NCBI RefSeq assembly: GCF_000226115.1
Contig: NC_016460.1
Span: forward strand, 2,356,001 to 2,420,000
Reading direction: 5' to 3'
DNA length: 64,000 nt
From: Thermothielavioides terrestris NRRL 8126
Lineage: Eukaryota; Ascomycota; Sordariomycetes; Sordariales; Chaetomiaceae
The position numbers and the translations under genes were made by a program. The notes under the pieces are model-generated. The model was not told where the DNA came from, ran no database searches, and saw nothing but the letters and a program-made list of their open reading frames with translations. Positions 4,471 to 62,141 of the stretch are shown here, one piece after another; within the stretch, counting starts at the first letter, position 1, and every line of letters begins with the position of its first letter.

Positions 4471-4487
4471 GTCGGCCAGAGGCAGGG

Positions 4488-4760: not shown

Positions 4761-4761
4761 C

Positions 4762-22698: not shown

Positions 22699-23109
22699 TG
22701 ATGGCTAAAGAGGTCCCGCCAAGACTAATTTCGGCCAATTGTCGGCAATGTTTTTACAGCGTCAGTACCCCGCCAAGACCGCCAAGGGGTTTGCACTATC
22801 GCCACGGGTTAGCCACGGGTTAGTTCGCCGGGGGGTGCGGGGGCGGCGCCAACCCCCCGCTGGTTAGGGTGAGGGTTATAGTTAGGGTGAGGGTCAAGGT
22901 TAGGGTAAGGGTTAACTTCGTTTTCTTTTTTTTCGATTTGGTTGAGTTTTTATAAAGTTGTTGCAACGAGTCTTTACGATTGTTCGTTGTTGATGTTGCT
23001 CGAAGTCGTCGAGGCCCCGTCGTAGCCCCGCTCACCCCGTAGCGATTATAAATACTTGTAAGCGGCAGTCTCCGAAATTAGTCTTGGCGGGACCTCTTTA
23101 GCTATAACC
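22699..23109 (+). mobile_element. MITE family T, copy A (411 bp, telomere-like core)
   Basis: The ends are TGATGGCTAAAGAGG and (reverse complement of the right end) GGTTATAGCTAAAGAGG, each followed inward by TCCCGCCAAGACTAATTTC or a close variant. Flanking repeats CTCTCTCGGC (22689-22698) and CTCTCTCGCC (23110-23119) match 9 of 10. The middle (22862-22915) is a run of degenerate telomere-like GGTTAGGG units after a GGGGGTGCGGGGG tract. No coding capacity. A 9-10 bp target duplication points to a nonautonomous Mutator-type element. Confidence 0.88.
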
Positions 23110-23437
23110 CTCTCTCGCCCACCCCGGGGTTCCGATTGGATGCGGCTGATCAACGTGCATGCTTGCACCCAAGGAACATTCGAGGCCCCGCCCGAGAGAT
23201 GGGACGAACAACCGCGCGGCAGCACAGATGCAACAGCAGCTGAAGAGAAGATCCAAGGCCGAATCTCGATATAGTACAGAGATCAAAGGAAATCTAGCAC
23301 TTAAGGTAGGGCACTGTACATGTATTTTGTTTCTGAGTAGCCTTGGACGGATAGTTAGTTCCGCTATATGGATTGTTCAGGCTTGGAAAGTTCCAAACGG
23401 ACCCCACTCTTCGGCCCGTTGGATGGCCCCGACATAG

Positions 23438-23825
23438 TAGACGTTAAAGAGGTCCTGCCAAGACTAATTTCGGCCAATTGTCGGCTATGTTTTTACAACG
23501 TTATTACGTAGCCACTATCGCCAAGGTATTTACTCTATCGCCAAGGGTTAGTTCGCCAGGGGTTCCGGGGCCAGCGCCAGCCCCCCGCTGGTTAGGGTTT
23601 AGGTTAAGGTTAGGATACAGGTTATAGTTAGGGTACGGGTTATCCTCGTTTTCTTCTTTTTCAATTTGGTTGAGTTTTCGTAGAGTTGTTGCGACGAGTC
23701 TTTGCGATTGTTGTTGTTGATGTTGCTCGAAGTCGTCGTGGCCTGCTCATCCCTTGGCGATTTGTAATTACTTGTACGCGGCAAAATCCGAAATTAGTCT
23801 TGGCGGGACCTCTTTAACGACGACC
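23438..23825 (+). mobile_element. MITE family T, copy B (388 bp)
   Basis: Same orientation and core as copy A. Left end TAGACGTTAAAGAGG, right end (reverse complement) GGTCGTCGTTAAAGAGG. Flanking repeats CCCGACATAG (23428-23437) and CCCGACATGG (23826-23835) match 9 of 10. It carries GGTTAGGG-like units near 23590-23640. Confidence 0.88.
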
Positions 23826-25504
23826 CCCGACATGGGGTGGCCCGTGGCCCAGGAATTCTCCGACGCTGACAAACGTTCTTCAAGGAACATGGGACGGAAA
23901 GCATGAACCAGGTTCGGCCCAAACCGCACCTCAACTTGGAAACTTCCGTCGTTTGTGCAGTTCCCACGGTACAGCGCCCAACGATTGAATTTCATCCACG
24001 TCTGCATACACCACAATTTTCTTGAGACGCAGCGGCTTTTCCAACGCTGACTGCATCTCATTGGACGCCACCAACGCACAGAACGGGAAAAAGCCAAGGG
24101 CACGAGGCAACTGTGAGCGTTTTTCTCCTTTCCATCCCGTGCAAAAAAGCAGGTCCCCGATGAGGTCTCAAAAAAAGCGACCGGCCATCCAATAACACGG
24201 TTATAGCCTCTGCAAGATGTAGGTACGGAAAAGCTAGAGTATAGTATAGAGCGGGGCGCAGGGACCACCACGTTTCCCCTGACCCTGGCCTAGCGCGCCG
24301 TGCCCGTGGCTCCCCCTCTCAAACTTTGTCTGGACCACTCGACATCCCCCTATCCAATCTGCTGCTGCAGGTCCCAGCAACGAGGCGAGCAGATGGCGGC
24401 ACGCCCGCTTCCCTGTCACTCAGCCCACAGTGCACTGGGCGCCTCGGGATGTCCCCGATCGACTCCTCGCGGTTACTTACACTAGTGTAGTGTACCACAG
24501 TAGTTAGGCGTTTGATGAGAGGGGCATCGCGCCGTGGAGTCGCACTGGCGGCGAGATTCCTCCTTGAAAATTGGCCCGGGGGGGGGGGGGGGGGGGTGGT
24601 TGGGCCCGGGTTGCTGGACGACGGACGGGGACGGGAGCACTGCTTCCAGGTTTAAGGTAAATCTGCTTGTGCCTGACGCTAACTAACTGCAATATACATA
24701 GCTCCGTACTGTGTGTCCTTACTCTTCGCTGCCGCTGGGTCTAGTTAGTGATGCTAGCCCAAAAGAACACAAGCAGAGACAGCCAGAGTTCCCCCTGGTC
24801 ATGGCCCAGGCCCAGCTGCACGAAACAACCTACACTAAGCTAGCCTAGGCCAAACGACCGCCGAAGGTGCCTGCCAAGGCCTGCCAGAGTTCCATGCAAG
24901 TGACGGGAGCGGAGACCGTGGGGCTGTTGCACGTTCACCACCATGGCCCAGACCCCGAGCCGCAGGCGGGCTACACTACTGCGGAGTGTATTCCGTCCAG
25001 TATAAACCTGTCCATCCCATCTGCGCCCCTCGCCGTTCCTGACCTGCCACCTTCTTTCGCTCCTCACCCGCCTCGTTCTCCTCAACCTTGCCGGGCTACG
25101 TTCCTTTCTCTCGGCATCTTGCCAGCCCTTTCTTTCAGCTCGCGCTGTTTGCGTTCTTGTGCTTCATTCACACGCTCCCTTTCAACTTGCCAAGCTGCTG
25201 AGCCTGCTCAGCGTCCAGCTCCTTCTTTTGTTCGCTCGACTTTGGCCTGCCGTGCCTCGACCCTCGAGTCAGACAAACAAGGCTCCAACAGTCCCTCGAA
25301 CGACCTTTCTTTGCATTTTCCGGTGACAACTGGCGTTGGCACCCCGGACACGGCTTTGTATCACGGTCCCAGCGACTCATTCACCATTGCCCGCTCAAGC
25401 AACGTTGAGGAGACGGACCGGACTACCCGTCAGGCAACATCAACACACAAGCCCACACCGATAACCCCTTTCATTCTTGAAGACCAAACTGGTCAATCGC
25501 CACA
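23826..25504. other. Gene-poor region and DUF1996 gene leader
   Basis: No gene recognised. It contains a 19-G run (24578-24596) and a TACACTAGTGTA palindrome near 24480. Pyrimidine-rich sequence at 25020-25500 is probably the leader of the next gene. Confidence 0.55.
24578..24596 (+). repeat. Homopolymer run of 19 G
   Basis: Nineteen consecutive G after TTGGCCC. Length may be unstable or affected by sequencing. Confidence 0.9.
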
Positions 25505-27431
25505 ATGCTCTTCGCCACGGCTCTGGCGGCCCTGGTCGCCACGGCTGCTGCTGCCAAGGACTCGCGCACCTTTGCCGTGCTGCACCACTACGGCAACGGC
25601 CCGCTGACGACATGCCGTGCGGACCCCATTGTCTCGCCCGGCGGGCCCTCTTCCCACGTCCACACCGTTATGGGAGCCAGCAACTTCGGCTTCAACACGA
25701 CCGGCGAGTTGCTGCGCCAGTCCCGCTGTTCCACCGCCAAGCCCAAGGCCGACCTCAGCTCGTACTGGTTCCCGACCCTCTACTTCCAGGATCCCGCCAC
25801 TGGCCTCCTCGAGCAGGTCAAGTTCTACTACATGAACGTCTACTACTTGTGAGTCTCAATGTGTGCCGTGCTTGCCGGGTGCTTTGTGATGGCGAAGGCT
25901 GACCTTGCCCAGCTTCGAGCCCACGAACGACGATATCAAGGCCTTCCCGCTTGGCCTGCAGATGGTGAGCGGGAACGCGATGCTGAGGACGGCCCCGTCC
26001 AAGTCGGGTGCGAACCAATTGGACCCTTCCCAGGGACCTATCCAGCCCGTCCAGATTACTTGCCCGCGCACCAGCTACGACCCTCCCAGCTATCCAGCCG
26101 ACTCGGATGGTTCCATGGCGGGCATCCAGGACCCCAACAACAAGGGCGCTGGCATCGGCTTCCCCTTCCAGGATTGCGACGGATACGCCTCGCCCATGCG
26201 TGTCGACATCCACTTCCCTTCGTGCTATGACCCGTCGGCCGGCTTGACCAACTACCAGAAGAACATGCAGTTCCCCACGAGTGCGCCTGGCGGCAAGCAG
26301 GACTGCCCTCCCGGCTGGATTCACACGCCGCACATCTTCTTCGAGACCTACTGGGATACGCACTCGCTCCTGCCGCGCTTCCAGAACCTGATCGGCAAGG
26401 CTAGCCCCTTCGTCTTCTCGAACGGCGATGTCACCGGCTTCTCCGCCCACGGCGACTTCATCTCGGGGTGGGACGAGGAGGAGCTCCAGCACATTATCGA
26501 CACGTGCAATGCCGGCGAGGCTGGCATCGACAAGTGCCCTGGCCTGAAGCTCGGAGTGAACGACGACAGCGGTTCTTGCAACATCGAGTGCCCCGTCGAC
26601 GAAGTGATCGACGGCAAGCTGGAGAAGCTGCCGGGGAACAACCCTCTCGCGGGCTGGGGTCACGGCACTGGTAACGTCGCGGTTGCTTCGTCGCCTGCTG
26701 CCCCTTCGGCCTCGTCTTCGCCTGCGGCTGCGCATTCGTCGCCCAGCCAGTCGCCGGCTGCCACGTCCGAGAAGCAAACTTCCTCTGCTGCTGCTCCGCC
26801 GCCGCCGCCGCCGCCGTCGTCTACCACGCTTGTTGCTGTGCCCGCTTCGAGCGCCAAGCCGTCCACGCCTGTCGATGTCGCGGCCACGACGAGCAAGCCT
26901 GCTGCCCCGCCGCGGACAACCGCCCCGGCTGTCGTGGTCACAACGGTCTATGAGACCGTCACCGTGTGGGAGACCAAGACCGTGTACGTGGACAACGGCA
27001 CGCCGGCGCCCACGCAGGCCCCCCAGACGACCAACAGCAAGACGGCCGACATCTCGGGCTTCAAGTACGTGGGCTGCTACCGGGACGCGCAGACCCGCGT
27101 CCTCAGCGGCGAGGTGCTGCCCAACCTGGGGCTGGTCAGCAACACGGCGTGCGTCAACTACTGCGCCTCCAAGGGCTTCAGCATCGCCGGCACCGAGTAC
27201 GGCGGCGAGTGCTACTGCGGCAACGGCCTGTCGTCGCTCGACAAGCTGGACGAGGCCAGCTGCAGCATGGCCTGCAAGGGCGACGCCGGCCAGACCTGCG
27301 GCGGCAACTGGGCCCTCACGCTCTACACCAAGGGCGGCGCGGCGCCGGGCACCACCGCGGCCAAGCGCCATGCGGGACACAACCACCACCTCCATCACGC
27401 GCGTGTGCCGTCGCGGCGTCATCGGAGATAG
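25505..27431 (+). CDS. Secreted DUF1996 and WSC-domain protein
   Basis: Exons are 25505..25848 and 25913..27431, giving 620 residues. A signal peptide (MLFATALAALVATAAAA) is followed by DUF1996, about 25-280 (SSHVHTVMGASNFGF, then WIHTPHIFFETYWDT and HGDFISGWD). A Ser/Thr/Ala/Pro-rich linker, about 285-490, is likely O-glycosylated. A Cys-rich WSC domain spans about 497-585 (YVGCYRDAQTRVL, GGECYCGN, CGGNWALTLY). A basic His/Arg tail follows (HAGHNHHLHHARVPSRRHRR). WSC domains bind glucans or xylans. DUF1996 has no settled biochemical role, so an extracellular carbohydrate-related role is inference. The 64-nt intron falls inside DUF1996 and restores YYFFEPTNDD. Confidence 0.92.
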
Positions 27432-28590
27432 GCGCCTCTGCTTCTCTGCTTGCCTGCCCGCCTCGATTGGCTGGCTCATATTGAAGCATGCGTGCTTCGC
27501 TCTTCTCTTCTCGGTTCATAAACCTCGTTTTTGTTCCATTCACATCTCCATCATTCGCCCTGCGATGGTTGGAAAAGTTTCTCTGTATTTACTTTACTAC
27601 CCATTTTTTTTTTTCGTTTCTTTTCTCTCTCTCAGAGGGACCCTGGAGGGCTGGGACACACAGGTTAGAGAGAGAGGGGAGTTGGTTTGGCGGCAGAGAA
27701 AGAGCATTTCGGTTGGCACCACCCTGCTTCCCCCCTTCTCGCCGCACGGGGCCGGAGCAGGGTCAAAAGAAGGCGCTGGGAACCATTCGCATTCGCGGGA
27801 GGTGATGGCGGTTTGGGTTCTTCTTTTCTTAACGACGACATGACGCTCGCTTAAGAAGGAAAAGCTGTGGACGGGGATCTGGCTTGCTTTGAGGCTTGCT
27901 TGCTTGCTGGCATCGGGCTCTTCAGCCATGCGCCTGTCCAGCAACAGCACGCTCACCGGCAGCAGCGGCATATTTCACTTCGATATCTGTGTATCTATAG
28001 CATTGTTCAATTCTTTTGGGGGTTTGCTCCCCCGGGGCTTCCCTGGCCTGTTTTGGTCGGCGGAGCAGTTTGGGGACGTTTGACTTGGGGTTTCATAGAA
28101 TATATCAGGGCGAACAGCGGTTTGGCTGTCGTGGGAATCCGTGCCAATGGAGAGAGTCGTTCCCATTCCTCGAGTCTGAATCGTTTACTCCGTATTCCGC
28201 TGGTCAGCCGCTCAAACAGCTGCGAGATGATGAGATGCGCCTGCACTGCATAGCTAACCCTAACCCGGCAACAGCTACACTACCCCAAATTTACAGATAC
28301 CTTTTTGGGCCGCGCTGGACCACCACATCCGCCCCAAATTCAGCGCGGTTCAGAACAACTCGAGACAGCGTGAAGTGCCGTCAATCCGTGCAATCCTGCG
28401 CCGTCATATTCAATCCGGCCAAGTCCTACCAGACACCGAAAATTGTGCCCAATACGAAAGCGTCTATAAAATATTGCTGACATGATGAATCCCGTGCTTT
28501 TGAGACCCTGAAACCTGAATCGAGTCTCTCGTTTCTCGTCTTTCATCTGTCTCACCTCTGTGACCCTCCACAGCCTGGGTTATCGCCAGC
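27432..28590. other. Intergenic; RCM1 promoter side
   Basis: No gene recognised. It contains a T-rich stretch (27604-27614) in the probable 3' region of the DUF1996 gene. Confidence 0.55.
28255..28266 (-). repeat. Interstitial telomere-like motif (CCCTAA pair)
   Basis: TAACCCTAACCC, 325 bp before the RCM1 start codon. Similar motifs occur at 1551, 45851 and 49516. Confidence 0.8.
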
Positions 28591-30653
28591 ATGTCCCTCT
28601 ACCACGAAACGGCGGCCATTGTCACCGGCCCCTCCACGCATGGCGGCAGCCTCAAGTCCAAGATATACGGCAACAAGGACCTCAAATCGCCACCAGCACA
28701 GGTATACGCCCTGGCCTTTGAGGCAAGCAAGTGGAGTGGCGTCTTGAAGGAGGTAGTTGAGAATGCACAGCTGCTGCAGAGCGAGCGCAAGGTAATAATG
28801 CATTTCAGCAATATTCACGGCAAGGCCAAAAGAGTTGCAGAGAGCTGACACCAAGACAGCTCACACCTGCCCTCTCCATCTTGCTCGTGCACGACCTGCT
28901 GCTTGCCAAGAAGGGCATCGCGCTCCCGGCCTCTCATGGCTTGCGTGCCGCCGTCGAGAGGCACAAGGCGAGGCTGCAGTCCGAGTTCACCAGGGCCAGG
29001 ATACGGAGGAAGTGCCCCACGCTCGAAGCGCTGAAGGCGATGGTCGACGCGCAGCTGGGGCCGGTTCACCCGCGCTGGATCAGGGTCAACGCGCTCAAAA
29101 GCACGATCGACGAGCAGCTGGACACCACCTTCAAGGGGTTCGAGATGGTCCCATCCGTCGAGGAGGTCATCGCATCTGCGTCGACGGGGAAGAGGGTAAT
29201 CTGTCTCGACGGCCACGTGCCAAACCTCATCGCCGCCTCCCCGGGGATCGACTTCACAAAGACCGAAGCCTACAAGGAGGGCAAGATCATCCTGCAGGAC
29301 AAGGCCTCCTGCTTCCCGGCCTACCTGCTCGACCCGCGGCCCGAAGACGGCGACATCATCGACGCGTGCAGCGCGCCGGGGAACAAGACGACCCACCTGG
29401 CCGGCATCCTGTACGAGCGGGGAGGCTTCGCCGACGGCCAGCGGATCCTCGCGTTCGAGAAGGACGAGCAGCGCGCCAAGACGCTCGCCAACATGCTGAA
29501 GGCGGCCGGCTCGGACGCCGTCACCGTCGTCCACGCGGGCCGCGACTTCCTCAAGACCGACCCCCACGCGCCCGAGTTCCGCCGCGTCGGCGCCCTCCTG
29601 CTCGACCCGTCCTGCTCCGGCAGCGGCATCGTCGGCCGCGACGATGCCCCGGAGTTCCACCTGCCATCCGCGCCGCCCACCCCAACAGCCGGTTCAAGCA
29701 AAACCAGCAGCAGCAGCGGCGGCGGCGGAGGCGGCGGCGCCCAACCCCCCAACCGCAAACGAAAGCGCCACGAAGCAACCACCGCCACCGCCGCCGACAC
29801 CAATGCCACCACCAATGAAGAAGAAACCGCAACCACCTCCGACTCCCCCTCCTCGCCACCAAACCCAGCCCTAGAAACCCGCCTCGCCTCCCTGGCCGCC
29901 TTCCAGCTCTCCATCGTGCTGCACGCGCTCTCCTTCCCCGCCGCGCGCAAGGTGACCTACTCGACCTGCTCGGTGCACGCGGCCGAGAACGAGCAGGTGG
30001 TGCGCGCGGCGCTGGCGTCGCCCGTCGCGCGCAGCCGCGGCTGGCGCCTGCTCCGCCGCGCCGAGCAGGTCCGTGGCTTGCGGGACTGGCCTGTTCGCGG
30101 GGACCGGCGGGCCTGTCGGAGTGGGAATCACGGGGGGGAGAAGGGGGAGGTGGTGGTGGGGGTGGGGGAGGAGGAGGAGGATGAAGCGGAGGCGGAGGAG
30201 ATTGCGGAGGCGTGTGTGCGGGCTGAGAAGGGGGATGGGAAGGGGGTGATGGGGTTTTTTGTTGTTTGTTTTGTTAGGGATCGTGTTGGGGGTGATGGGG
30301 CGGTGGGGGAGGGAGGAGGTACGGATTGGGATGAGGATGGGGATGGCCCGTACGTGAGGGACGCCCAGGGGAGGATTGTCCGGGATGAAAACGGGATTCC
30401 GACGCTGAAGAGCACTGGGAGGAAGGTAATCGAGTGGGACTCCATGGCGGATGAGGAAGAGAGTGAGTCAGTGGAGCTGAGATTTGGAGAGGACGACGAC
30501 GACGAAGACGGGCCGTTTGAGAGGGACGCGGAGGGGCGGATTGTGAGAGGGGTGGATGGGATGCCGCGGTTGAAGCGGGCGAGGGTGAGTCGCGACGGCG
30601 ACGAGGAGCAGGAGGAGGAGGAAGATAACGAATGGGGGGGATTTGACGATTAG
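28591..30653 (+). CDS. RCM1: 25S rRNA cytosine-5 methyltransferase Rcm1 (NSUN5 family)
   Basis: Exons are 28591..28791 and 28860..30653, giving 664 residues. It has a NOL1/NOP2/Sun methyltransferase fold with SAM-binding DACSAPGNKTTHLA near 235. The catalytic motifs are DPSCSGSG near 316 and TYSTCSV near 434; their cysteines form and release the covalent RNA intermediate. In yeast Rcm1 methylates one cytosine of 25S rRNA in the nucleolus. The closing strand GFFVVCFVRD is present but separated from the core by a low-complexity insert. The fold also contains a Ser/Gly/Lys/Thr-rich insert after DPSCSGSG (about 330-390). An acidic C-terminal extension after 540 carries two copies of a motif of about 20 residues (DGPYVRDAQGRIVR at 562 and DGPFERDAEGRIVR at 617), which is not part of the enzyme family. 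Confidence 0.92.
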
Positions 30654-31180
30654 CTATCTCGCTGTATGTGTTACGCAGTATGGCGTATTCGATCTCCAAC
30701 CTCTTTCCAGGCATGTTCGTGTCTCTGCACAACGAGCAAGTTGTCGCGGTCGCCATGGATGCGTCCCCACCCTGGCGCCCAGCAAAAGGCGCGAACAACG
30801 CCACAATATTTGAAAGCCCACACAAGCTCATACGACGTTCAAATAAGCTATTCGGGCCCAAGATTTCGCTCTCTCTCGGACTCTGAGGCTCCTCGGATCG
30901 CGCCGGTCTTGCGATCGGATCCGGGAGCGGTACCCGTCGCCAGGGGCAGGGGTCGCGCGGATGGGGCTCAACGCGGATCGTCACTTCAGCTTAGTTCGCT
31001 GCTTGCTGGGTTATGTAGGTCAAAAAAACAACAGCACAATCGCTGCGACCAGCCTTGATATACGCCCGAGGTCGGGCCACTCTCAACGAGGCATTTCTAA
31101 CTCAACAACTTGCTTGATCTACTACCTGGCCCAAGCCGTCCGTCCCTGAACCAAATCTGCCTGCTAGAACTGCAGGCGCC
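30654..31180. other. Intergenic between RCM1 and the EBP-like gene
   Basis: No gene recognised. Confidence 0.55.
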
Positions 31181-33460: not shown

Positions 33461-33592
33461 ATTGATGGCTCAACGGGGAGGAGATAGCAGTTATCGTTGC
33501 TGAGACAGTCGTGAAGTTGCAAAGTTCCAGGTTGGTTGTTTGGGGATTCATCAGAGTACGGATAGGTACCTCTTGTGGAAGCTCGCGCGCCA

Positions 33593-33992
33593 GGTTATTC
33601 TTAAAGAGGTCCCGCCAAGACTAATTTCGGAACCTACCGCTTACAAGTATTTACAAATTGCCGCGAAGGAGCGGGGTCGCCACGACTTCGAGCAACATCA
33701 ACAACGAAGAATTGCAAAGACCCGTAGCAGCAACTTCGCGAAACCTCAACCAAATTGAAAAAAAAGAAAACGAAGTTAACCCGCACCCTAACCTTGACCC
33801 TCACCCTAACTATAACCCTCACCCTAACTAGCGGGGGGCTAGCGCCGCCCCCCGTACCCCCGGCGAACTAACCTATAGCTAACCTATAGCGATAGTGCAA
33901 ACCCCTTAGCGGGCTTGGCGGGGTACTAACGCTATAAAAACATTGCCGACAATTGGCCGAAATTAGTCTTGGCGGGACCTCTTTAAGATCTA
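33593..33992 (-). mobile_element. MITE family T, copy C (400 bp)
   Basis: Reverse orientation relative to copies A, B and E (CCCTAA-like units on the plus strand, 33786-33830). Left end GGTTATTCTTAAAGAGG, right end (reverse complement) TAGATCTTAAAGAGG. Expected 10-bp flanks are TCGCGCGCCA and GTGTACGCTA: 5 of 10 identical, and 4 of the 5 differences are C/T or G/A transitions, as if the duplication had been mutated by RIP. Confidence 0.8.
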
Positions 33993-34120
33993 GTGTACGC
34001 TACTAGGGTGTATAGGTGACGGCCCAAGATTGGCGAATGACAGCGGCTCACTGCCCACGTCAGTGCAGCAGAATCCACTGAATTTTGGCGGTCTTCAGTG
34101 GCAGAAAGCTGCCCCTCCAG

Positions 34121-34520
34121 GGTCGTGGTTATAGAGGTCCCGCCAAGACTAATTTCGGAGGTTGCCGCTTATAAGTATTTACAATCGCTATAGGGTAAGC
34201 GGGGCCGCGACGACTTAGAGCAATATCGACAATGTACAATCGCGAAGACTTATAGCAACAACTTTACTAAACCTCAACCAAATCGAAAAAAAAGAAAACA
34301 AAGTTAACCTATACCCTAACCTTGACCTTCACCCTAACCTTAACCCGAATCCTAACCAGCGGGGGGCTAGCGCCGCCCCCCGTACCCCCGGCGAACTAAC
34401 CCGTGGCTAACCCGTGGCGATAGTGCAAACCCCTTGGCGGTCTTGGCGGGGTACTGACGCTATAAAAACATTGCCGACAATTGGCCGAAATTAGTCTTGG
34501 CGGGACCTCTATAACCTCTA
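34121..34520 (-). mobile_element. MITE family T, copy D (400 bp), in the RRP45 upstream region
   Basis: Left end GGTCGTGGTTATAGAGG, right end (reverse complement) TAGAGGTTATAGAGG. Flanked by a perfect 10-bp direct repeat GCCCCTCCAG (34111-34120 and 34521-34530). Same orientation as copy C, which lies 128 bp to the left. Its right end is 76 bp from the RRP45 start codon. Confidence 0.9.
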
Positions 34521-34596
34521 GCCCCTCCAGACCTCAAACCGCCCTGAATTCGAGACTTTCTCAAGAACAACATTCCTCCCCGGCACCTCGGTCACG

Positions 34597-35549
34597 ATGC
34601 CGCGAGAAGCGGAGCCTTCTCTCAACGAGAAGCAATTTGTCCTACAAGCGTTACAAGAAAACCTCCGGCTGGACGGCCGGGAGCTTGACCAGTACCGGCC
34701 GCTGGACCTCAGCTTTGGCGACCAGTATGGCGTCGCCGACGTCACGCTCGGTAGGACGAGGTACGGTAATCCTTCCAGTTCGACTCAATTCAATTCAACT
34801 CCGATCTAACTTTTCTTTTGTCTCTGTGCAGGGTCCTCGCCAAAGCCACCGCCGAGGTAACCGTCCCCTACGCCGACCGCCCGCTCGACGGCATCTTCAC
34901 CATCGCCACCGAGCTCAGCCCGATGACGTCGCCGGCCTTCGAGGTCAACCGGCCGACCGAGACCGAGGTGCTGCTGTCGCGCCTGCTCGAGAAGACGGTG
35001 CGGCGTTCTGGCGCGCTCGACACCGAGTCGCTATGCCTCGTGGCCGGGCAGAAGTGCTGGTCCGTCCGCGTGGACGTGCACGTGCTGTCGCACGACGGCA
35101 ACCTGATCGACGCGTCGTGCCTCGCCGTCGTCGCCGCCCTGCGCCACTTCCGCAAGCCCGACACGAGCATGGACGCCGGCGTGCTGACCGTCTACACGCC
35201 CGCCGAGCGCGAGCCCGTGCCGCTCAGCTGGCTGCACTCGCCCTTCTGCGTCACCTGGAGCTTCTTCGGCGACGAGGCCGACATCGCCGTGCTGGACGCC
35301 ACCTGGCTCGAGGAGCAGGTGCGCGTCGGCAGCTGCACCATCAGCCTGAACAAGCACGGCGAGATCTGCCAGATCGCCAAGCTCGGCGGGACCCCGGTCG
35401 ACGCCGTCGCGCTGCTGCAGTGCACGAGCGTGGCGCTGACCAAGGTGAAGGAGTTCTCGGACCTGCTGGATACGAAGTTGGCCGAGGATCTGAAGAGGAG
35501 AGACAAGGGCGGCTTTATGGCGGAGCTCAGGGCGGAAAATGAGAGGTGA
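34597..35549 (+). CDS. RRP45: Exosome core subunit Rrp45 (RNase PH fold, EXOSC9)
   Basis: Exons are 34597..34760 and 34832..35549 with a 71-nt intron, giving 293 residues. Family hallmarks are NLRLDGRELDQYRPLDLSF, GVADVTLG, DRPLDGIFTIATELSPM, RLLEKTVRRS and DTESLCLVAGQKCW. Rrp45 is one of six RNase PH-like ring subunits of the exosome. In eukaryotes the ring is catalytically inert and threads RNA to Rrp44. Without splicing the protein would stop after a short tail (RYGNPSSST...), so the intron is required. Only 76 nt separate the start codon from MITE copy D, so transcription may begin inside or very near the element. Confidence 0.95.
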
Positions 35550-47725: not shown

Positions 47726-47937
47726 GCGGCGGAGTTGGGATGTCAAGGTGCGGTTTTGGGAGGAGGGTTCCGATTCATGTTAGGGTTTGGCGTTGGGTGT
47801 GTATTCGGGTGCATTTAGTCTCTATTTTTGTTTGGGCACAGCAGCGGACCCGTCTCTTTTTGCTTCGAGTCAGTCGCCATCATCTATCGCCAACCGTCAT
47901 CTATTATGGATACCAGTTTTTCCTCTATTGCGATCCC

Positions 47938-53608: not shown

Positions 53609-54520
53609 TTACCCCTTCGCTGCCTCCATCTTGAGCTCTTTCAACCTCTTCTCCTTCGCCTGCACCTCCTCCTTGGTCTTTGCCATCAGCGCCTCCACCT
53701 TCACGAGCGCCTCCTTCAGCTTCTTGATCTCGACCTGCTCCGTCTCCCGACTGAACGGCTGGCCCGGCCGGTTCGTCAGCGGGATCATGGCGCTGCGCTC
53801 CAGCACGCCGCCCTCGGTCCGGCTCGCGACCACCTGCTTCCCGGCATCCTTCTCCTTCCCCTTGCTGCCGCCGCCGCTGCTGCTGCTCTTCGAGCCCGAA
53901 GACTTGGGCGGCGGCGGCGCCGCCGGCGGCATGGCGCCCGAGGTGAGCAGCTCGTAGAACGGCTCGTACGGCTCGTTGAACAGCTGCTCCTCGTACGCCC
54001 ACGAGATCACCTGCCCGCCGTTGAGCCGCATGGCTTCTTTCTCCTCCTCGGTGCGCCCGTACGGGTGTAGGCGCAGGTGGTGGTACAGCGTCTGCGGCTT
54101 CTCGGCCGACTCGGGCGCGTAGTACAGCTTGATCGCGATCTCGAACTCGCCCCAGCCTGTCTCGTGCAGCTCGAAGGGCTTGCCCTTTTCGCCTTCGATC
54201 ACTGTGCGGTCGGGTTAACATAGGTTAGATGGGTGGTTGGTTGAAGGGGGGGAGGGGGAAGGGGGAAGGAGGAGGAGTAACGGACTTCGGATGTGGTTCG
54301 GGATGGACTCGTGCAGCTTGAATTGTACGCGCCGCAGCCAGTAGGTGATGTCGACATCGTCGATGCCCTTGACGAAGACGGTCCAGGAGTGGGTGTGGTC
54401 GTCGGGAATGCCGGGCGGTTTGGGGTTGGTCTTTTCGTCGAACGGGCGCGCCGTGGTGCCGTATACGAAGGGGCGGAATATTTGCACGCCTTTGACGCGC
54501 TTTCCTGCTGCCGGTGCCAT
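53609..54520 (-). CDS. YAF9: YEATS-domain protein Yaf9 (NuA4/SWR1 subunit)
   Basis: Minus-strand exons 54520..54286 and 54201..53609 (84-nt intron) give 275 residues. The YEATS domain spans about 8-150. Acyl-lysine reader residues are in [11 protein letters not shown], the HESIPN loop and [15 protein letters not shown]. Then come [14 protein letters not shown] and [18 protein letters not shown] Gly/Ser/Lys linker and a C-terminal coiled coil ([25 protein letters not shown]) follow; the coiled coil tethers Yaf9 to NuA4 and SWR1. The donor is GTCCGT, a less common form, and the joined sequence reads [13 protein letters not shown]. The ATG at 54520 directly precedes the conserved core. It shares a 480-bp divergent region with COQ11. 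Confidence 0.93.
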
Positions 54521-55000
54521 GATGACGGGTTTGCAGGACGTGTGGATGGATGGGGTGTGGCAGATATCATTCACATTTTGTTGCGAGGTGCCCGCGCCGA
54601 AAGCCGATGCGATGCCGCCTGGAGCCGTTCCAATCAGCCTTGATTGTGGGGCATGATCTTTGCTTCCAGACCCGCAAGTTATCGCAGCATGTGGCATGTG
54701 CAACCCCTGTAAATGGGGAGCTAAATAGGTGGGTCCAGGAAGACTGCTATGACCGAAGTTTCCTGTGCTCACGCAACCAGCTCCATCTACGCCATCGTCT
54801 TTGATACTCCGAGCTTACCCATTTTCAATGAGACCTAGTAATGTCCTGTGGTCTCCGGCAGCCTCTATTTTTTGAACAATCAAAATCAGGCTTGACGTTC
54901 ACCAACACAGACGCAACCTTAGAGACCGACCCTGTCCACTCTGATATTGCGAGTAGCTCACATGCCTCGCTGAGCCCGGAAGCGGGTACTCATTCACACC
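54521..55000. promoter_or_regulatory. Divergent promoter region between YAF9 and COQ11
   Basis: 480 bp between opposite start codons. No specific site assignable. Confidence 0.5.
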
Positions 55001-55967
55001 ATGTCAGCCACAAAGAGGCTAGTTGTTTTTGGAGGCAATGGCTTCCTAGGCTCCAGGATATGCCGAGCCGCCGTGGCCCGTGACTGGGACGTCACATCAG
55101 TCAGGTACATCCCGCTTCCCCTCCGCTCTTACACGATCATACCAATTATGTACATTGGCATAAACTAACCCCAACCGCAGCCGCTCCGGCACTCCTCACT
55201 GGTCCTCCGTCACCTCGTCCTCCTCCCCTCCGGCCTGGTCCCACAAGGTGTCCTGGGAGCGCGGCGACATCTTCCGGCCGGCGGAGTGGACGTCGCTGCT
55301 GCGCGGCGCCGACTACGTCGTGCACAGCCTCGGCATCCTGCTCGAGGCCGACTACAAGGGCGTCATCTCCGGGCGCGAGTCGCCCATCGCCGGGCTGGCG
55401 CGGGCCTTCGACCGGACCAAGGGCGCGCACGCGCCGGCCAACCCGCTGGAGCGCGTGCGCCGCGGCGAGGCGCCCGAGCCGGGCGTCGAACCGCCCGCGA
55501 GCCCCGCGCAGCTGACGTACGAGATGATGAACCGCGACAGCGCGATCCTGCTGGCGAAGGAGGCCGCGCGCGCCGGGGTCGAGGCGTTCGGGTTCGTGTC
55601 CGCCGCCGCGGGCGCGCCGGTGCTGCCGGCCCGGTATCTGTCGACCAAGAGGGAGGCCGAGGCCGTGGTCGCCCGCGAGTTCCCACAGATGAGGGGCGTG
55701 TTCTTCAGGCCGCCGTTTATGTACGACCGGTCCAGGAAGGTTACGATGGCGGTGGCGGCGGCGGCGGCTGCGGGATCGGTGGCCAACAGGTTGACCGGAG
55801 GCGTGCTGGGCGGGTTTCTGGGCGCAGCCGTCACGAAGCCGCTCTCGGCCGATGCGGTAGCAGATGCCGTGGTGGAGGCGTTGGCGGATGGGAGCGTCAA
55901 GGGGCCGGTCGAAGTGCCTCAGCTGGAGGAGCTGGCGACGAAGGCGTGGCGCAAAACCATGCTCTGA
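55001..55967 (+). CDS. COQ11: Coq11-type mitochondrial atypical SDR
   Basis: Exons are 55001..55104 and 55181..55967, giving 296 residues. A Rossmann nucleotide-binding motif VVFGGNGFLG occupies residues 8-17. After the intron come VTSVSRSGTPHW and GADYVVHSLGILLE, then FGFVSAAAG, the active-site-like YLSTKREAEA and VFFRPPFMYD. This order matches the atypical SDRs related to NDUFA9 and yeast Coq11, which acts with the coenzyme Q biosynthetic complex at the inner mitochondrial membrane. No clear cleavable presequence is seen. A charged insert near 125-160 (GAHAPANPLERVRRGEAPEPG) is extra. The C-terminus lies 150 bp from the convergent SYF2 stop. Confidence 0.85.
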
Positions 55968-56117
55968 GGAGTGGATGTGTATGCAACCAATGTATTATCA
56001 CCCTGTCACCCTCCCGTGTAGCTGTAGACTGTACAATACCAAAATACCCAACCCCAAACTCCGTTCGCTGGCGATGGCGGTGATGAAGAGAACCACCCAA
56101 CGCCCTTCCCGCGTGCC

Positions 56118-57107
56118 TTACACCATGGTGCCCCGCTCGAAGCTCTCCCGGATCTCGGCCGTGTACTTGTTGTAGAAGCGCGCCAGTTTCTGGTTGAACT
56201 GCTTGTTCTTCTCGTTGATGTACGTGACGTCGCCGCCGTCGTCTCCGTTCTTGGCCATCCGCTCCCTCCTCCGCTTGAGGGAGGCCTCCTCAGCCCTGCG
56301 CAAGTCCGCCACGAGCCGGTCCACGGCCGCCTTGTCGGGCTTGTGCTCTGCGAACGCGGTCGAGTCGGCCGTGCTGAAGAAGGTGCCGTCCTTGTCAACA
56401 GCGATCATCTCCCCGTCGTCCGTCTCCACGATGTCCAGCGTGCCGGCGGCGGCGGCCTTCTCGATGGCGGCCAACTTCTCGCGCGTGTAGCGCTCCAGGT
56501 CTGGGGGCCCCATGTTGCGCAGCTGGCGCTTGTAGGCCTTCTGGCTCTCGCGCGCATAGTCCTTGAAGGCCGTGTCGTCGCGGTGCGCCTCCTTCTTGCG
56601 CATCCGCTTGTCCCACCGCTCGCTCTCCTCCACGGTCCAATCCCACGCCCGCTTGCGCTCAAAGTCCTCGCCGGCCTCCTCGATGTCGGCTTTGAGGAGC
56701 TTGTGCGACGCAATCGCGTGCTGCCGGTTGATCGCCGTCAGTTGGCTTGGGTCAGTTGCCAGCCGCTGAGATTCTTTGGTCGCTTCTTTCAGGTTCTGGT
56801 CGGACGAGGCCTTGGCGCGCGCTTGCAGGGCGCGGAAGCGGGCGAGACGTTCTTGGGCTGCGCTGGCGGCGGACGGGGCCGGGCGAGCCGGTTCTGCAGG
56901 CGTACTGGAGGAGGACGGGGCGTCGGATGTTGCTGGTTGCGGTGATGTTTTCGCGGCGGCCATTGTCGTCTCCTCGGCGGGTGTCTCCTCGGCGGGTGTC
57001 TCCCCAGTGGTCGATAGCGCGCCGTCTGCTTCATTCTCGACTTGCTTTCCGGCTGCCACTTGCGCCTCGCCAGAGCGCGTCGTCTTTCTCTTCTTTGCGG
57101 GAGGCAT
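56118..57107 (-). CDS. SYF2: Pre-mRNA splicing factor Syf2
   Basis: Single exon, 329 residues. The N-terminus is low complexity, with a nuclear localisation-like MPPAKKRKTTRSG and a Glu-Thr-Pro repeat (PAEETPAEET). The SYF2 domain spans about 85-325: ERLARFRALQARAKAS, AWDWTVEESERWDKRMRKKE, FKDYARESQKAYKRQL and INEKNKQFNQKLARFYNKYT. Syf2/p29 is a component of the NTC-associated spliceosome and acts around catalytic activation. Start is the ATG at 57107. A 392-bp region separates it from the divergent TTI1. Confidence 0.95.
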   Translation of the reverse strand: MPPAKKRKTTRSGEAQVAAGKQVENEADGALSTTGETPAEETPAEETTMAAAKTSPQPATSDAPSSSSTPAEPARPAPSAASAAQERLARFRALQARAKASSDQNLKEATKESQRLATDPSQLTAINRQHAIASHKLLKADIEEAGEDFERKRAWDWTVEESERWDKRMRKKEAHRDDTAFKDYARESQKAYKRQLRNMGPPDLERYTREKLAAIEKAAAAGTLDIVETDDGEMIAVDKDGTFFSTADSTAFAEHKPDKAAVDRLVADLRRAEEASLKRRRERMAKNGDDGGDVTYINEKNKQFNQKLARFYNKYTAEIRESFERGTMV

Positions 57108-57499
57108 TCTGTCCTCAAAGGTTCGTAGACACTGGGGACCGTCGATTTCCTAGGCTGGTTGGATATGTCGGTGGGGATGGGCGACAAGAGGCTGCCGCCA
57201 GCAAGTTGGTGGGTGGCATGCAGTCTTCTGAAGGCGGTCAGGTTTGAGAGGGCCGCAGCGCCTGGAAATGCCTGGGTTTGGCAGGCCCAAGGAGCCGTAT
57301 GACGTACGGTGTAACGTACAACATTGTTACGAGTATTACGCAACGCATTAACAGCGTCCAGAATCCACAGGAACCGTTTACTTACTCTGTCCAACAACCC
57401 ATGAATCTCCTCGATTCTTAAAATCAGAGCAGTAAGAAGCTCGATTTTCCCATTACCCAGCCTTTTTTTGATGATGCAATGCCTGTCTTTGTTTGAACG
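57108..57499. promoter_or_regulatory. Divergent promoter region between SYF2 and TTI1
   Basis: 392 bp between opposite start codons. A short inverted ACGTACGGTGTAACGT-like patch lies near 57302-57320. No specific factor can be named. Confidence 0.45.
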
Positions 57500-60400
57500 A
57501 TGGCAACCGTTGCACCATCGGAGCAGCGGACTGAGTTCTTCCAGCAGGTGAGTCGTCGCTTCGATCCCTGCCAATTTCCATGGATTCACATGCTGAGTCG
57601 GGTGCAGCTGAAACGGGTGTGTGTGCCTCTTAGCCAGCTGGCGCTGCGCCCCAAGGACAAAGCCGTCGACGCGAAGGAGGCCCTCAGGCTGCTGGAAGCT
57701 CTCATCGGCCTTTGGACCGCCCAAGCGAGCAAGGATGCGGCCATCTTGGATGACAAGCTGGCTGACTATGTCTTCTTCCCGCTGTCACACCTCCTCCGGG
57801 ACCGGGACCGCTATCCCCTACGGGTTATCGAAACCGTCATCCGCCTGCTGCGAGAGCTCATCCAACATGGCTGGAAAGCTAAGGCGTCGCCCCAGCTTTT
57901 CCAGCAGCTCCTCGTCTTTCTCTCCTTTGTCATTGGTGGTGTCTCCGGCCAGCCGAGGCGAGACATGCCTGAGGAGACCCTGATCGAGGGCTTCCGTACT
58001 CTTAGCGCTCTGATTAACGTTGCAGAACCCTCTCATTTGGCTGGATCCGCAGACGCGGTCTCTGAGGGCAAAACGATACCGGCTCTCGGCCACAGTGTGA
58101 CGGTCATGCTGGACGGGGTGACCGAGGGTGTGGCCGCTTCGATTCAACTCGAAGCAGCCAAGTGTTTACGATCCGTGTTCCTCACGATTAAGGACAGAAC
58201 GGTGCTCGCGCAGTTCTTGCCCGGCACCGTCTCGGCGCTCACTAAAACGCTGTCTCCGCCCAAGGCAAAGCAGACCCAAAAGAAGGTCCTTCTCAGCTGC
58301 CTAGACGTCCTTAAGTTAGTGCTCGTAAACCTACTGGGAGACATCAAAGTCAGGCCCCTCCTGAAGAAATTGGACAACTCGGCCGACGGAAAGGAGGAGG
58401 CACCGACGGGGCAGGAAGATTCCGGTCCGCCAGGCGAGCTCACACCCGCTTGGCTGAAAGCGACTGCCGCCCAGGTCAAGATCGCTCTGGCAGCAGTTCT
58501 TAAGCTGCGAGCCCACGAGTCCGATGAGATCCAGTCTGCGCTATATAGACTCTGCATCGGCCTTCTCGATGAATGCCACGCGTCACTCGCCGGTTGCCAG
58601 TCTATCCTGGTAGAAACGGCGATGATGCTGGAAGATGAAAGCGCCACCATGTCGCGGCTTGAGACCAGTCTTCAAGACCTCGCCGGCATCTATCCCGAAC
58701 TAGGTGACAACATCAAGTCAGTCTTGTACAATTGGATCACCAGCCTACCTCGGGTCATGCAGTCCAGCGATGAACGGGTCAAGGAGCTAGCCATCCGGAG
58801 CATTCTCAGGGGCAGCAAGCTGGCCGCAACCATGCAGATGGACTCGGCCACCCTCAATGACGCCCTAGGAGACTCACTCAGGGACAGTATCGTCGCCCTC
58901 GTCAAGGGTGCCAAGCCGCCAAAAATCGTGGATGATGCTGGAGCCGATCTCACGACGAGCAATGAGTTAGCAAAGTCAGGTATGGAGCTGGCAAACTACG
59001 CTCCTATCCTCCTCGACTCAGAGAGCCAGAAGACGGCGAGGAGAGACATTCGCGCCTTGATAACCAGCGTCGGCTCTGCGGCCCAGCAAGTCGAGCTAGC
59101 CACGTCGATGTTGAGCCATATCCGAGACTCCGAAGGGGTCGACCAAATCGCTTCCTTCTGGCTGGCATTCGAGCTCCTGAAGGCGACATACGCGCAAGCT
59201 TCAGAGCTAGATGACCTCCTCGATCTGTCCTCGCTTGGAGAATCCACGCACCAAGAAGAGGCCTTCCAGGAGCTTTACGACTTCTCGGCTTCAGTCCTGT
59301 CCGCCCACTCGGATTCTGCCGAAGCGGACTGGCGGCTGGAAGCGATTGCCCTCGAGGTTACGGCGTTTGCCGCGTCGCGTCTGAAGACGGACTTCCGGCC
59401 GGAGCTCATTGACGTGCTCTACCCCGTAAGCACGTTCCTTGGCTCCCCAGTGCCGCAATTGAGGAAACATGCCATCACGACTCTGAACATTCTTGCCGCG
59501 TCTTGCGGTTACGAGAGCGTGTCCGACTTGATCGTTGACAACGCCGACTACATGGTCAACTCGGTATCTCTACGGCTGAATACGTTCGATATCTCGCCCG
59601 CATCCACCAAGGTTCTCACCATGGTGATCCGGCTGACAGGGCCGCGGCTGGTCCCCTTCCTGGACGATGTCGTTGCTGCCATCTTTGCGGCGCTCGACAA
59701 CTACCACGGGTATCCAGTTTTCGTCGAGAGTTTGTTCTCGGTCCTGTCCGAGGTGGTTTCACAAGGCGCCAGATCCGACATGCTCCTCCTCGAGGATTCC
59801 ACCTCGAAAACCATCGACCACAGAAAGAAACGCCCATACAGCCTCGGAATCCCAGGCATCCTCCAAACCCTCGATAAACGCCTCGAGCGAGCCGCGCGGA
59901 CCCGCGAGGAAGCCGCAATGCCGCCCGTCGCGCACCCGAAACAACCCTGGACCGACGCCAACATCGACAGCGGCTCCCAGCCAGAAAACCAAGCCGCCTC
60001 CCTCCTCGACAAACTCACCAACCCCACCGCAGAGTCGAACTCCGACGACGCCGAAGAACCAAACCAGCCCGAATCCCAATCGCAATCCCAAGCCCTCGAG
60101 CGAACCGACGACCCGAAACAAACACCAACCTACACCCTCCTCGCCCGCGTGCTCGCGCTGACGCAGCACCACCTCACCTCCCCCAGCCCATCCCTGCGCA
60201 AGTCCCTCCTCGACCTGGTCGCCACGGCCAGCCCGGCCCTCGCGCCGGACGAGAACGCCTTCCTGCCCCTCGTGCACGTCGTCTGGCCCGTCGTCGTGGC
60301 CCGCCTGCGCGACCCGGAGCCGTACGTCGCCGTCGCGGCGTGCGGCGCGCTCGCCGCGCTGTGCAGGGCCGCCGGCGACTTCTTGGCTAGCCGGTTCAGG

Positions 60401-60949
60401 GCGGAGTGGTGGGATGGTGGCGGTGGTGGCGGAGGGGGGCTGGCCGGATGGGTGAGGAGGGTGAAGAGGGAGGCTGCTGAGGCGAGAGGGGCCGGCGGCG
60501 GGTTTGGGAAGAGGACGGGCGGCGCCAGGGTGGGGACTGGGAAGGGCGGGGAGGGTCAGGGGATTCTTATCCCTGTCAAGGGAGCATTGGAGGGCGGGTT
60601 GGCTGAAGGAAAGCTGGTTCAGAGTTCGTCGTCGGGTGGCGGGGGAGGAGCGTTGGGGAGGTTTGCGCAGGCGTCGCTGGTGTGGGAAGCCGTGGTGGGG
60701 CTGCTGACGGCGGTCGTGTCGTTTGTGCGGTTGGAGGACGACATGTTCGACGACATTCTGGGCATAGTGGTTGACGTGCTGCCGCGGCATGCCGAGTTGA
60801 AGGAGGCCCTGGACACGGTCAATGCTGATGCCGTCTGGTTAGCCCTGTTTGAGCGGGGTATGGTCCAGGGGAGGGAGGCTCCGGTGGTGGAGGGGGGGTT
60901 TGAGTTTCGGTTTGCGAGGATGGAGGGACGACCGGTGGTGGCGGTCTAA
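57500..60949 (+). CDS. TTI1: TTT-complex HEAT-repeat protein Tti1
   Basis: Exons are 57500..57547 and 57608..60949, giving 1129 residues. The frame is also open through the 60-nt intron, so an unspliced 1149-residue reading is possible. Removing it gives TEFFQQLKRVCVPLSQLALRPK, the conserved Tti1 start. The protein is almost entirely alpha-helical HEAT repeat (for example YVFFPLSHLLRDRDRYPLRV, then HAITTLNILAASCGY and VLTMVIRLTGPRLVPFLDDV). Tti1, with Tel2 and Tti2, folds and stabilises PIKK kinases (ATM, ATR, TOR relatives). The C-terminal third carries a Gln/Pro/Asn/Ser-rich insert (about 830-870) and a Gly-rich insert (about 960-1040) before a last conserved helix pair. Confidence 0.88.
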   Translation: MATVAPSEQRTEFFQQVSRRFDPCQFPWIHMLSRVQLKRVCVPLSQLALRPKDKAVDAKEALRLLEALIGLWTAQASKDAAILDDKLADYVFFPLSHLLRDRDRYPLRVIETVIRLLRELIQHGWKAKASPQLFQQLLVFLSFVIGGVSGQPRRDMPEETLIEGFRTLSALINVAEPSHLAGSADAVSEGKTIPALGHSVTVMLDGVTEGVAASIQLEAAKCLRSVFLTIKDRTVLAQFLPGTVSALTKTLSPPKAKQTQKKVLLSCLDVLKLVLVNLLGDIKVRPLLKKLDNSADGKEEAPTGQEDSGPPGELTPAWLKATAAQVKIALAAVLKLRAHESDEIQSALYRLCIGLLDECHASLAGCQSILVETAMMLEDESATMSRLETSLQDLAGIYPELGDNIKSVLYNWITSLPRVMQSSDERVKELAIRSILRGSKLAATMQMDSATLNDALGDSLRDSIVALVKGAKPPKIVDDAGADLTTSNELAKSGMELANYAPILLDSESQKTARRDIRALITSVGSAAQQVELATSMLSHIRDSEGVDQIASFWLAFELLKATYAQASELDDLLDLSSLGESTHQEEAFQELYDFSASVLSAHSDSAEADWRLEAIALEVTAFAASRLKTDFRPELIDVLYPVSTFLGSPVPQLRKHAITTLNILAASCGYESVSDLIVDNADYMVNSVSLRLNTFDISPASTKVLTMVIRLTGPRLVPFLDDVVAAIFAALDNYHGYPVFVESLFSVLSEVVSQGARSDMLLLEDSTSKTIDHRKKRPYSLGIPGILQTLDKRLERAARTREEAAMPPVAHPKQPWTDANIDSGSQPENQAASLLDKLTNPTAESNSDDAEEPNQPESQSQSQALERTDDPKQTPTYTLLARVLALTQHHLTSPSPSLRKSLLDLVATASPALAPDENAFLPLVHVVWPVVVARLRDPEPYVAVAACGALAALCRAAGDFLASRFRAEWWDGGGGGGGGLAGWVRRVKREAAEARGAGGGFGKRTGGARVGTGKGGEGQGILIPVKGALEGGLAEGKLVQSSSSGGGGGALGRFAQASLVWEAVVGLLTAVVSFVRLEDDMFDDILGIVVDVLPRHAELKEALDTVNADAVWLALFERGMVQGREAPVVEGGFEFRFARMEGRPVVAV

Positions 60950-61490
60950 CGGTAGCACCCTCACTACGGTATGCTCTCATTAAGGGAAAAGAGGAGGAGG
61001 CAAAAGAAGAAATGAAAGTAATATATACAGCTTGGGATCCCATTACCTGGCCGTTCCGATGTTCCCAAGCACCACGGTTTACCGAGATCACTTACAGGGC
61101 TCAGCCCATTAGCTACGTACAGCTTGCTCTTGCTCGCTAATGTTGGCGATCTTTAGGTCTCCCCATCGCTCCGGTAGATAGGCTACCCTGGGTTACCTCA
61201 GACTTCTTCCTTCGCGCTCGCTTCTGCTCGCCGGGTAACCCTGATCTGTCCCTGGAGTATCGCCCCCGGATCGCTGGCTATCCTGATCTATCCAAGGCAA
61301 CCTGCTACTGTGAAACTCTCTCCAGACTTAACACCAAAAGGGTTCTCCCTGCTGAGAGTAAACACAACGGTACTATCCGTGGATTTGGCGAGGCCAAAAT
61401 TACCGTTGTCAACAACCTTACATATGTTGTGCACACCCACCACCGCGGCGCAGTCGTCCTTTATAGCCCATCCTTACAACTGTTTCTGTC
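60950..61490. other. Intergenic between TTI1 and a 5S rRNA gene
   Basis: No gene recognised. TTATAG at 61461-61466, about 30 bp before the 5S start, corresponds to the TATA element of fungal 5S genes. Confidence 0.55.
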
Positions 61491-61609
61491 ACGTACGGCC
61501 ATAGGTGGTAGAAAACTCGGGATCCCGTCCGCTCTCCCCTAGATAAGCTACCAACCGCCGGATTAGTAGTTGGGTCGGTGACGACCAGCGAATCCCCGGT
61601 GCTGTACGT
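61491..61609 (+). rRNA. 5S ribosomal RNA gene, type 2
   Basis: 119 nt. Helix I pairs ACGTACGGC with GCTGTACGT. The conserved blocks CCCGTCCGCTCT, GATTAGTAGTTGGGT and GACGACCAGCGAA are the same as in the copy at 9454. Helix II pairs TGGTAG with CTACCA, a different sequence from copy 1 with the same pairing. T-rich sequence follows (61609-61613). MITE copy E lies 140 bp downstream. Confidence 0.95.
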
Positions 61610-61750
61610 TTTTCTTTCATTTTCTTTTTTTCACGACTCACACCTGCTGATTCCATTGCGAAGTTCACCAGCTGGTTAGCTCACCAGACTCTTGTGATGC
61701 CTCATGAGAGGGTGGAAGGAAGGAGGTTGATCTAGGAGAGGACCGTAGGG

Positions 61751-62131
61751 TAGACGTTAAAGAGGTCCCGCCAAGACTAATTTCGGCCAATTGTCGGCAA
61801 TGTTTTTACAGCGTTTTTACGCAACCCCGATCGCCAAGGCGTTTGCTCTATCGCCAAGGGGTTAGTTCGCCAGGGGTGCGGGGGGGCGGCGCCAGCCCCC
61901 CGCTAGTTAGGATTCGGGTTAAGGTTAGGGTGTGGGTCAAGGTTAGGGTACGGGTTAACTTCGTTTTCTTTTCTTTCGATTTGGTTGAGGTTTCGTGAAG
62001 TTGTTGCTACGAGTCTTTGCGATTCTTCGTTGTTGATGTTGCTCGAAGTCGTCGTGGCCTTGGCGATTTGTAAATACTTGTAAGCGGTAGGTTCCGAAAT
62101 TAGTCTTGGCGGGACCTCTTTAACGACGACC
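61751..62131 (+). mobile_element. MITE family T, copy E (381 bp)
   Basis: Left end TAGACGTTAAAGAGG, right end (reverse complement) GGTCGTCGTTAAAGAGG. Flanked by a perfect 10-bp direct repeat GACCGTAGGG (61741-61750 and 62132-62141). It has the same orientation and terminal bases as copy B. TTAGGG-like units lie near 61906-61952. It borders the broken amino-acid permease. Confidence 0.9.
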
Positions 62132-62141
62132 GACCGTAGGG

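Follow-up and report, generated by a model that had tools for sequence, protein, structure and literature searches.

Five copies of a short, high-copy transposable element were identified in a 64,000-nucleotide window of the Thermothielavioides terrestris NRRL 8126 genome (contig C4, positions 2356001-2420000; genome 36.9 Mb in six contigs) and were assigned to a family of miniature inverted-repeat transposable elements (MITEs) with about 520 members genome-wide. The family is best explained, at a probability of roughly 0.7, as a set of non-autonomous cut-and-paste elements mobilised in trans by a transposase that would recognise their 32-bp terminal inverted repeats (TIRs) and whose staggered cuts of 8 bp, sometimes 9, would create the target-site duplications (TSDs) flanking the copies; this transposase most likely belonged to the Mutator-like element (MULE) superfamily, and a telomere-like tract in the middle of the element would be a passenger. 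Three points give the family its interest: identical copies are present without a visible transposase, the telomere-like core occurs in every subfamily, and solo copies contrast with tandem ones.

Copies were located through a 20-base end core which, as claimed in the original prediction made from the window's letters, is common to the five window copies, with one change in copy B. Searched across the whole genome with up to two mismatches, the core gave 528 matches on the forward and 521 on the reverse strand and none with the reversed control, and these 1,049 matches correspond to about 520 elements. Four subfamilies (S1 to S4) were distinguished by their ends. With one mismatch allowed, genome-wide searches gave 161 matches for the ends of S1 (GGTTATAGAGG), 517 for S2 (CGTTAAAGAGG), 178 for S3 (TCTTAAAGAGG) and 185 for S4 (GGCTAAAGAGG), a sum of 1,041 versus 1,049 core matches in which, at this tolerance, a few ends may be counted under two subfamilies. 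All five predicted copies were recovered where they had been placed, although each had been given 2 bases short at one end (corrected positions and subfamilies in Table 1).

A sample of 62 paired copies with flanks was studied in detail, drawn from 20 loci that were the best BLAST matches to copy D, the first 30 general-core places on C1, the first 30 S1 ends (all on C1), the window copies and one additional end pair. Counts below refer to this sample unless another is named; alignment, divergence and unit-conservation analyses used 59 copies, three array copies having been removed. Sampled copies measured 376-433 bp (main range 380-413 bp), with modal lengths of 402 bp for S1, 403 bp for S3 and 413 bp for S4, and a spread of 380-412 bp for S2, in which 382-383 bp was commonest. 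Between 0 and 4.77 Mb of C1, 60 elements were found, and in the 40 of them that were paired the core-to-core TIR distance was 356-415 bp. A length under about 600 bp is too short for a transposase gene and lies in the size range of MITEs. High copy number, TIRs, target duplications and non-coding size together support a MITE family, in agreement with the earlier classification. The element is of an ordinary kind, and probably of Mutator type; no description of this family was found among the titles and abstract openings of open-access papers listed in a literature search.

A scan over boundary position and duplication length gave a single optimum, at which each boundary of the element falls 12 bases outside the core and the TSD measures 8 bp. 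At these ends 38 of 62 copies were flanked by a perfect 8-mer, and 42 of 62 by one with at most one mismatch. Identity between left and right flanks was 0.74-0.82 per column within the 8 bases versus 0.16-0.37 in the three columns either side, and cross-paired flanks, used as a control, matched at 8 bp in 0 of 3,782 comparisons. Perfect 9-mers were present at the family's own ends in 4 further copies and 10-mers in none; when the ends were shifted toward longer repeats, perfect 9-mers were reached in only 10-11/62 and 10-mers in 5/62, as expected from neighbouring bases matching by chance. A 10-bp duplication, as originally proposed, was therefore rejected, given the length peak at 8 bp and the absence of 10-mers at family ends (0/62). 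The perfect 10-mers formerly read in copies D and E arose from misplaced ends, with two bases that match by chance added to the 8-mer, and copies A and B, for which 9/10 repeats had been read, match 8/8 at 8 bp. Copy C had been described correctly as carrying a decayed duplication; it retains 5/8 matching bases, and each of its three mismatches is a C>T or G>A type difference. Copies without flanking direct repeats were also looked for in the 62-copy sample, and the outcome did not refute the MITE reading. Among the 38 perfect TSDs, C occupied position 1 in 19 and G occupied position 8 in 17, a mild symmetric preference, and mean GC was 0.54 versus 0.58 in the flanks.

The full TIR is 32 bp long and contains a 26-bp core that was perfect in 48/62 copies. 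Its outer six bases were concordant between left and right ends in 55/62, yet differ between subfamilies; in the consensus of each subfamily the element ends start with a G. Two ends that co-vary in this way fit joint recognition by one transposase or end-to-end conversion, and the data separate neither from the other.

Part of the family has moved recently. With an S3 query, at least nine copies (the query included), on C1, C2, C4 and C6, reached the query's own score over 403/403 bases and five more rounded to 100% identity, counts that are lower bounds since 40 of 496 candidates were scored. Three S3 copies were identical letter for letter on direct sequence comparison, and such identity indicates recent movement of S3. 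S2 copies lay 3-16% from their consensus (13 copies) and, judged by sequence, are older than those of S3. The transposase would have been active recently and may since have been lost, mutated or passed unrecognised.

The distribution of the family was analysed on one C1 arm (0-4.77 Mb), in which the elements were somewhat clustered: 11 gaps were shorter than 5 kb, versus a uniform expectation of 3.6 and a maximum of 12 in 5,000 simulations; a density gradient by itself raises the number of short gaps. MITE density on C1 was 2.67 per 100 kb at 0.2-1.1 Mb versus 0.68 at 2.7-4.77 Mb, a difference of about four times.

A MULE transposase is the likeliest, though unproven, mobiliser, a best guess founded on TSD size and on the MULE relics in this genome and not on shared ends. 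TSDs of Mutator-like elements are 8-11 bp long. Genome searches with the MULE domain PF10551 gave 14 matches (10 above the cut-off), all with in-frame stops; the 12 that were examined carried 4-8 stops in 82-98 codons, at loci with a GC of 0.33-0.46. Five matches to the hAT dimer domain were obtained, each with one or two stops, and the Merlin domain PF12762 (IS1595-type DDE transposase) had no genome match. No stop-free MULE or hAT domain match was found genome-wide; the transposase searches covered MULE, hAT and Merlin and did not extend to KDZ, P-type or other families. With a recently mobile, high-copy element in a genome where all MULE and hAT domain matches carry stops, the question of the mobiliser is both sharp and answerable.

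One MULE relic lies in the window itself (Table 1). Its domain match (2639-2926) contains 8 in-frame stops and its ends differ from those of the MITE; its TSD is a by-eye reading, the scripted scan, which covered outward shifts only, having printed no match. The 8-9 bp TSDs of the MITE and the 8-bp TSD of this relic fit the earlier suggestion of a Mutator-type transposase acting in trans, but no MULE with the MITE ends was found among the 12 loci compared. The relic also has 60-bp TIRs, a 23/24-bp tandem repeat at 1582-1790 and decay resembling that of repeat-induced point mutation (RIP). Telomere-like bits in the examined MULE relics amounted to one or two short ones and were not systematic; TAACCCTAACCC stands just inside one TIR of the window relic and TTTAGGGTTAGGGTTAGT inside a second MULE locus (L054, 1070-1087), with nothing comparable in most other examined MULE loci.

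Both hAT and Merlin transposases can generate 8-bp duplications, so that mobilisation by one of them would account for the TSD length, and the five hAT dimer-domain matches have only one or two stops each. We consider it unlikely, since stops are present in all five of these matches, PF12762 is without a match, the MITE ends start with G where CA or TA would be expected of hAT, and the four 9-bp TSDs (4/62) misfit the strict 8 bp of that superfamily.

An autonomous element bearing the MITE ends was sought and none was found among the MULE loci compared and the end pairs inspected. Scripted pair distances covered 100 of the 1,049 core matches, all on C1, and subfamily end lists were checked by eye for 100 each of the 161, 185, 178 and 517 matches, which leaves room for a long element elsewhere. 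Two long end pairs were considered as candidates and rejected: the pair at C4:1734346-1735311 is made of adjacent copies, and that at C1:729376-731741 is a tandem array. The other long C1 pairs begin at C1:551478, and the right end proper to that copy was off by a single mismatch. The pairs at C2:8502294-8503092 and C1:5455971-5456759 look, from their coordinates, like a copy nested in a copy. The locus C4:1734200-1735400 contains two S4 copies of like orientation, with about 135 bases between them and no clear 8-bp TSDs.

Changes in the MITE copies carried a RIP-type signature, with C>T rates of 0.104 at CpA, 0.067 at CpG, 0.032 at CpT and 0.015 at CpC. One report describes RIP as typically affecting repeats that exceed 400 bp and share at least 80% identity (PMC4522978). 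A tandem MITE array with 396-bp spacing was found at about C1:729363-731753. Its four inner units have a GC of 0.31-0.34 and 68-76% identity to the window copies, and its outer copy has a GC of 0.40; all other sampled copies lie at 0.46-0.54. From this one array we infer that lone copies of about 400 bp mostly escape RIP through their shortness and that tandem copies are hit. The family would then persist with a lone 400-bp copy at or below the detection length of RIP, and tandem copies would be recognised and mutated. The contrast between solo and tandem copies amounts to a natural experiment on the length limit of RIP in a fungus other than Neurospora.

Several points weigh against the explanation by a MULE transposase acting in trans and by partial shelter from RIP. 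A BLAST comparison of four MITE copies with 12 of the 14 MULE loci yielded nothing beyond chance-level matches (13-19 bp), the window element being represented whole and the other 11 with only about 1.5 kb on each side. Eight bp is also the TSD length of hAT elements, one or two stops per hAT match leave room for an intron-bearing hAT gene, and the ends of hAT loci lay outside the comparison. No 8-bp TSD at up to one mismatch was present in 20 of the 62 copies; four of these have a 9-mer, and the others stand in arrays or next to another copy, have decayed or lack an explanation. The sample is non-random, with S1 over-represented (34/62), and end conservation in it is inflated because copies were located through their ends. 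The case for RIP in this species is drawn from one array, and solo copies also carry CpA-biased changes, so that any escape would be partial.

The internal tract of degenerate TTAGGG units predicted for the five window copies was confirmed in all of them, and a check for copies lacking it found it in 62/62 of the sample. Perfect CCCTAA arrays stand at all three contig starts that were read (C1, C4 and C6), which identifies TTAGGG as the telomere repeat of this genome. The best 54-base match to (GTTAGG)9 had a median of 43/54 (range 32-45), compared with a mean of 24.7 and a maximum of 32 in 1,240 dinucleotide shuffles; 61 of 62 copies exceeded that maximum and one tied with it. The anchor-to-anchor stretch was 55 bp in 52/62 copies, 56 bp in two and 53 bp in one; of the remaining copies, one was given too great a length by the parsing, and six, in which an anchor was missing, have comparable sequence. 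The subfamily consensuses show the tract as three 18-bp units, nine GTTAGG-type hexamers in all, and in the five window copies it starts 154-165 bp from the left end. Genome-wide, a 28-base stretch from the tract end, searched at up to three mismatches, gave 169 forward and 161 reverse matches, so that at least about 63% of copies carry it. Elsewhere in the interior DNA scored for such matches, the top telomere-like scores belonged to array copies of the same MITE, and the next was 34, at window position 47755. Read by eye, the copy at C1:3989067-3989485 has ten hexamers, three consecutive perfect TTAGGG units and a perfect 8-bp TSD (AGAGTTCC). A central GC hairpin beside the tract was considered and rejected, since shuffled sequences fold equally well as those of four window copies.

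Relative to the element body, the tract is not measurably preferentially conserved. Its divergence was 0.061 in S1 (body 0.039 and 0.046), 0.135 in S2 (0.081 and 0.103) and 0.064 in S4 (0.061 and 0.057); in S3 it was 0.021, between body values of 0.043 and 0.014. Within the tract 238 changes were observed versus 145 expected from context, with the highest rates at CpA (0.282) and CpG (0.245). GTTAGG was intact at units 1, 4 and 7 in 56, 56 and 52 of 59 copies, counts that are not independent events as the copies share ancestry, and the intervening units vary. Among 305 context-corrected six-column windows these three units fell at percentiles 0.095, 0.111 and 0.374, ranks that give no indication of selection on the GTTAGG units. 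The best reading of the tract is that of a passenger which all subfamilies have inherited without special preservation, and which began either as captured telomere-type DNA or as a short tandem repeat rich in G.

The tract might instead never have been telomeric, being an 18-bp G-rich minisatellite in three repeats whose likeness to TTAGGG arose by convergence. This is a genuine possibility, if short of probable: the subfamily consensuses do contain three 18-bp units, whereas the 6-bp register over nine hexamers, the median identity of 43/54 to the telomere repeat of the same genome and the copy with three consecutive TTAGGG within ten hexamers argue against it.

A functional tract is improbable. 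Three GGTTAGGG sites phased at 18 bp would dock a TTAGGG-binding Myb protein (Tbf1-, TRF- and Taz1-type proteins are of this kind) and thereby aid transposition, replication or local chromatin. Such a role would suit a tract found in 62/62 copies and exactly 55 bp long in 52/62, the retention of units 1, 4 and 7 (56, 56 and 52 of 59) between variable ones and the copy with ten hexamers including three perfect TTAGGG. It sits poorly with tract divergence at or above that of the body in S1, S2 and S4 (intermediate in S3), with 238 changes versus 145 expected and with units 1, 4 and 7 not being special among 305 windows; moreover, neither strand of GTTAGG has a CpA or CpG, and RIP would therefore leave these units alone in any case. 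More doubtful still is a bolder proposal in which the MITE would recruit host telomere-repeat-binding proteins through its 55-bp array, with GGTTAGGG every 18 bp and key units free of RIP targets, and in which some 520 interior binding sites would protect the element, open chromatin for the transposase and possibly titrate telomere proteins. The original prediction of telomere-like DNA inside the element is supported as sequence; its further suggestion that the tract binds telomere proteins or seeds repair gained no support, the tract not being preferentially conserved. Some 520 interior telomere-like tracts provide a ready-made test of the response of TTAGGG-binding proteins. About 22 perfect TTAGGG units were also found in an interstitial array at C1:6040830-6040961, outside any MITE and between AT-rich and GC-rich DNA; this array is possibly a scar of fusion, repair or a healed end.

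The family can be set beside known systems. Hop-type elements make duplications of comparable size. They are Mutator elements described from Fusarium oxysporum (PMC3599309). Like MULE-derived MITEs, the present element is short and non-coding, has TIRs and an 8-9 bp TSD and shares its genome with MULE relics, one of them in the window with an 8-bp TSD; unlike them, it has no ends in common with the examined MULE loci and contains a telomere-like central tract. A report on Mycosphaerella graminicola describes ten short MITE families without CpA-to-TpA RIP bias, which are likewise fungal MITEs in gene-rich DNA but average less than 200 bp, whereas copies here are about 400 bp long and partly hit, with tandem copies heavily mutated (PMC4522978). 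The telomere-bearing elements (TBE) of Oxytricha are also DNA transposons with telomere-type repeats, but these repeats bound an element that is coding and of Tc1/mariner type, whereas the present family is non-coding and has a degenerate tract at its centre (PMC4724952). In all five window copies the tract is internal and not at the ends, where a telomere-bearing element would have it. MoTeR of Magnaporthe is likewise fungal mobile DNA tied to telomere repeats, but comprises retrotransposons inserted in telomeres, whereas the present family is a TIR element at interior sites (PMC7367193).

Table 1. Coordinates of the MITE copies, their telomere-like tracts and the MULE relic within the window
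Feature	Subfamily	Position	Length (bp)	Strand	TSD	TSD position	Remarks
MITE copy A	S4	22697-23109	413	+	CTCTCTCG	22689-22696, 23110-23117	8/8
Telomere-like tract of copy A		22862-22916	55	+			nine hexamers; length includes leading G
MITE copy B	S2	23436-23825	390	+	CCCGACAT	23428-23435, 23826-23833	8/8
Telomere-like tract of copy B		23590-23644		+			
MITE copy C	S3	33593-33994	402	-	GCGCGCCA / GTACGCTA	33585-33592, 33995-34002	decayed, 5/8
Telomere-like tract of copy C		33775-33829		-			
MITE copy D	S1	34121-34522	402	-	CCCTCCAG	34113-34120, 34523-34530	8/8
Telomere-like tract of copy D		34303-34357		-			
MITE copy E	S2	61749-62131	383	+	GACCGTAG	61741-61748, 62132-62139	8/8
Telomere-like tract of copy E		61905-61959		+			
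Decayed Mutator-like element		1486-5062		+	ATTATTTT		8 bp, AT-rich; ends and TSD by eye

All window copies lie outside the five identified protein genes and the two 5S rRNA genes. TTI1, Cwc15, RNase PH, WSC with DUF1996, and TPR are the protein domains recognised in the window, a set that suits a filamentous ascomycete. The TSD of copy D is separated by 66 bases from the ATG (34597) of a putative exosome RNase-PH gene, an ATG that appears to belong with the RNase-PH exon at 34770-35546. The family deserves a place in repeat libraries, as a putative start codon thus lies less than 70 bases from at least one of its copies. Copy E starts 138 bases past the end of a 5S rRNA gene, and the two dispersed 5S rRNA genes of the window (9454-9573 and 61491-61610) are 82% alike.

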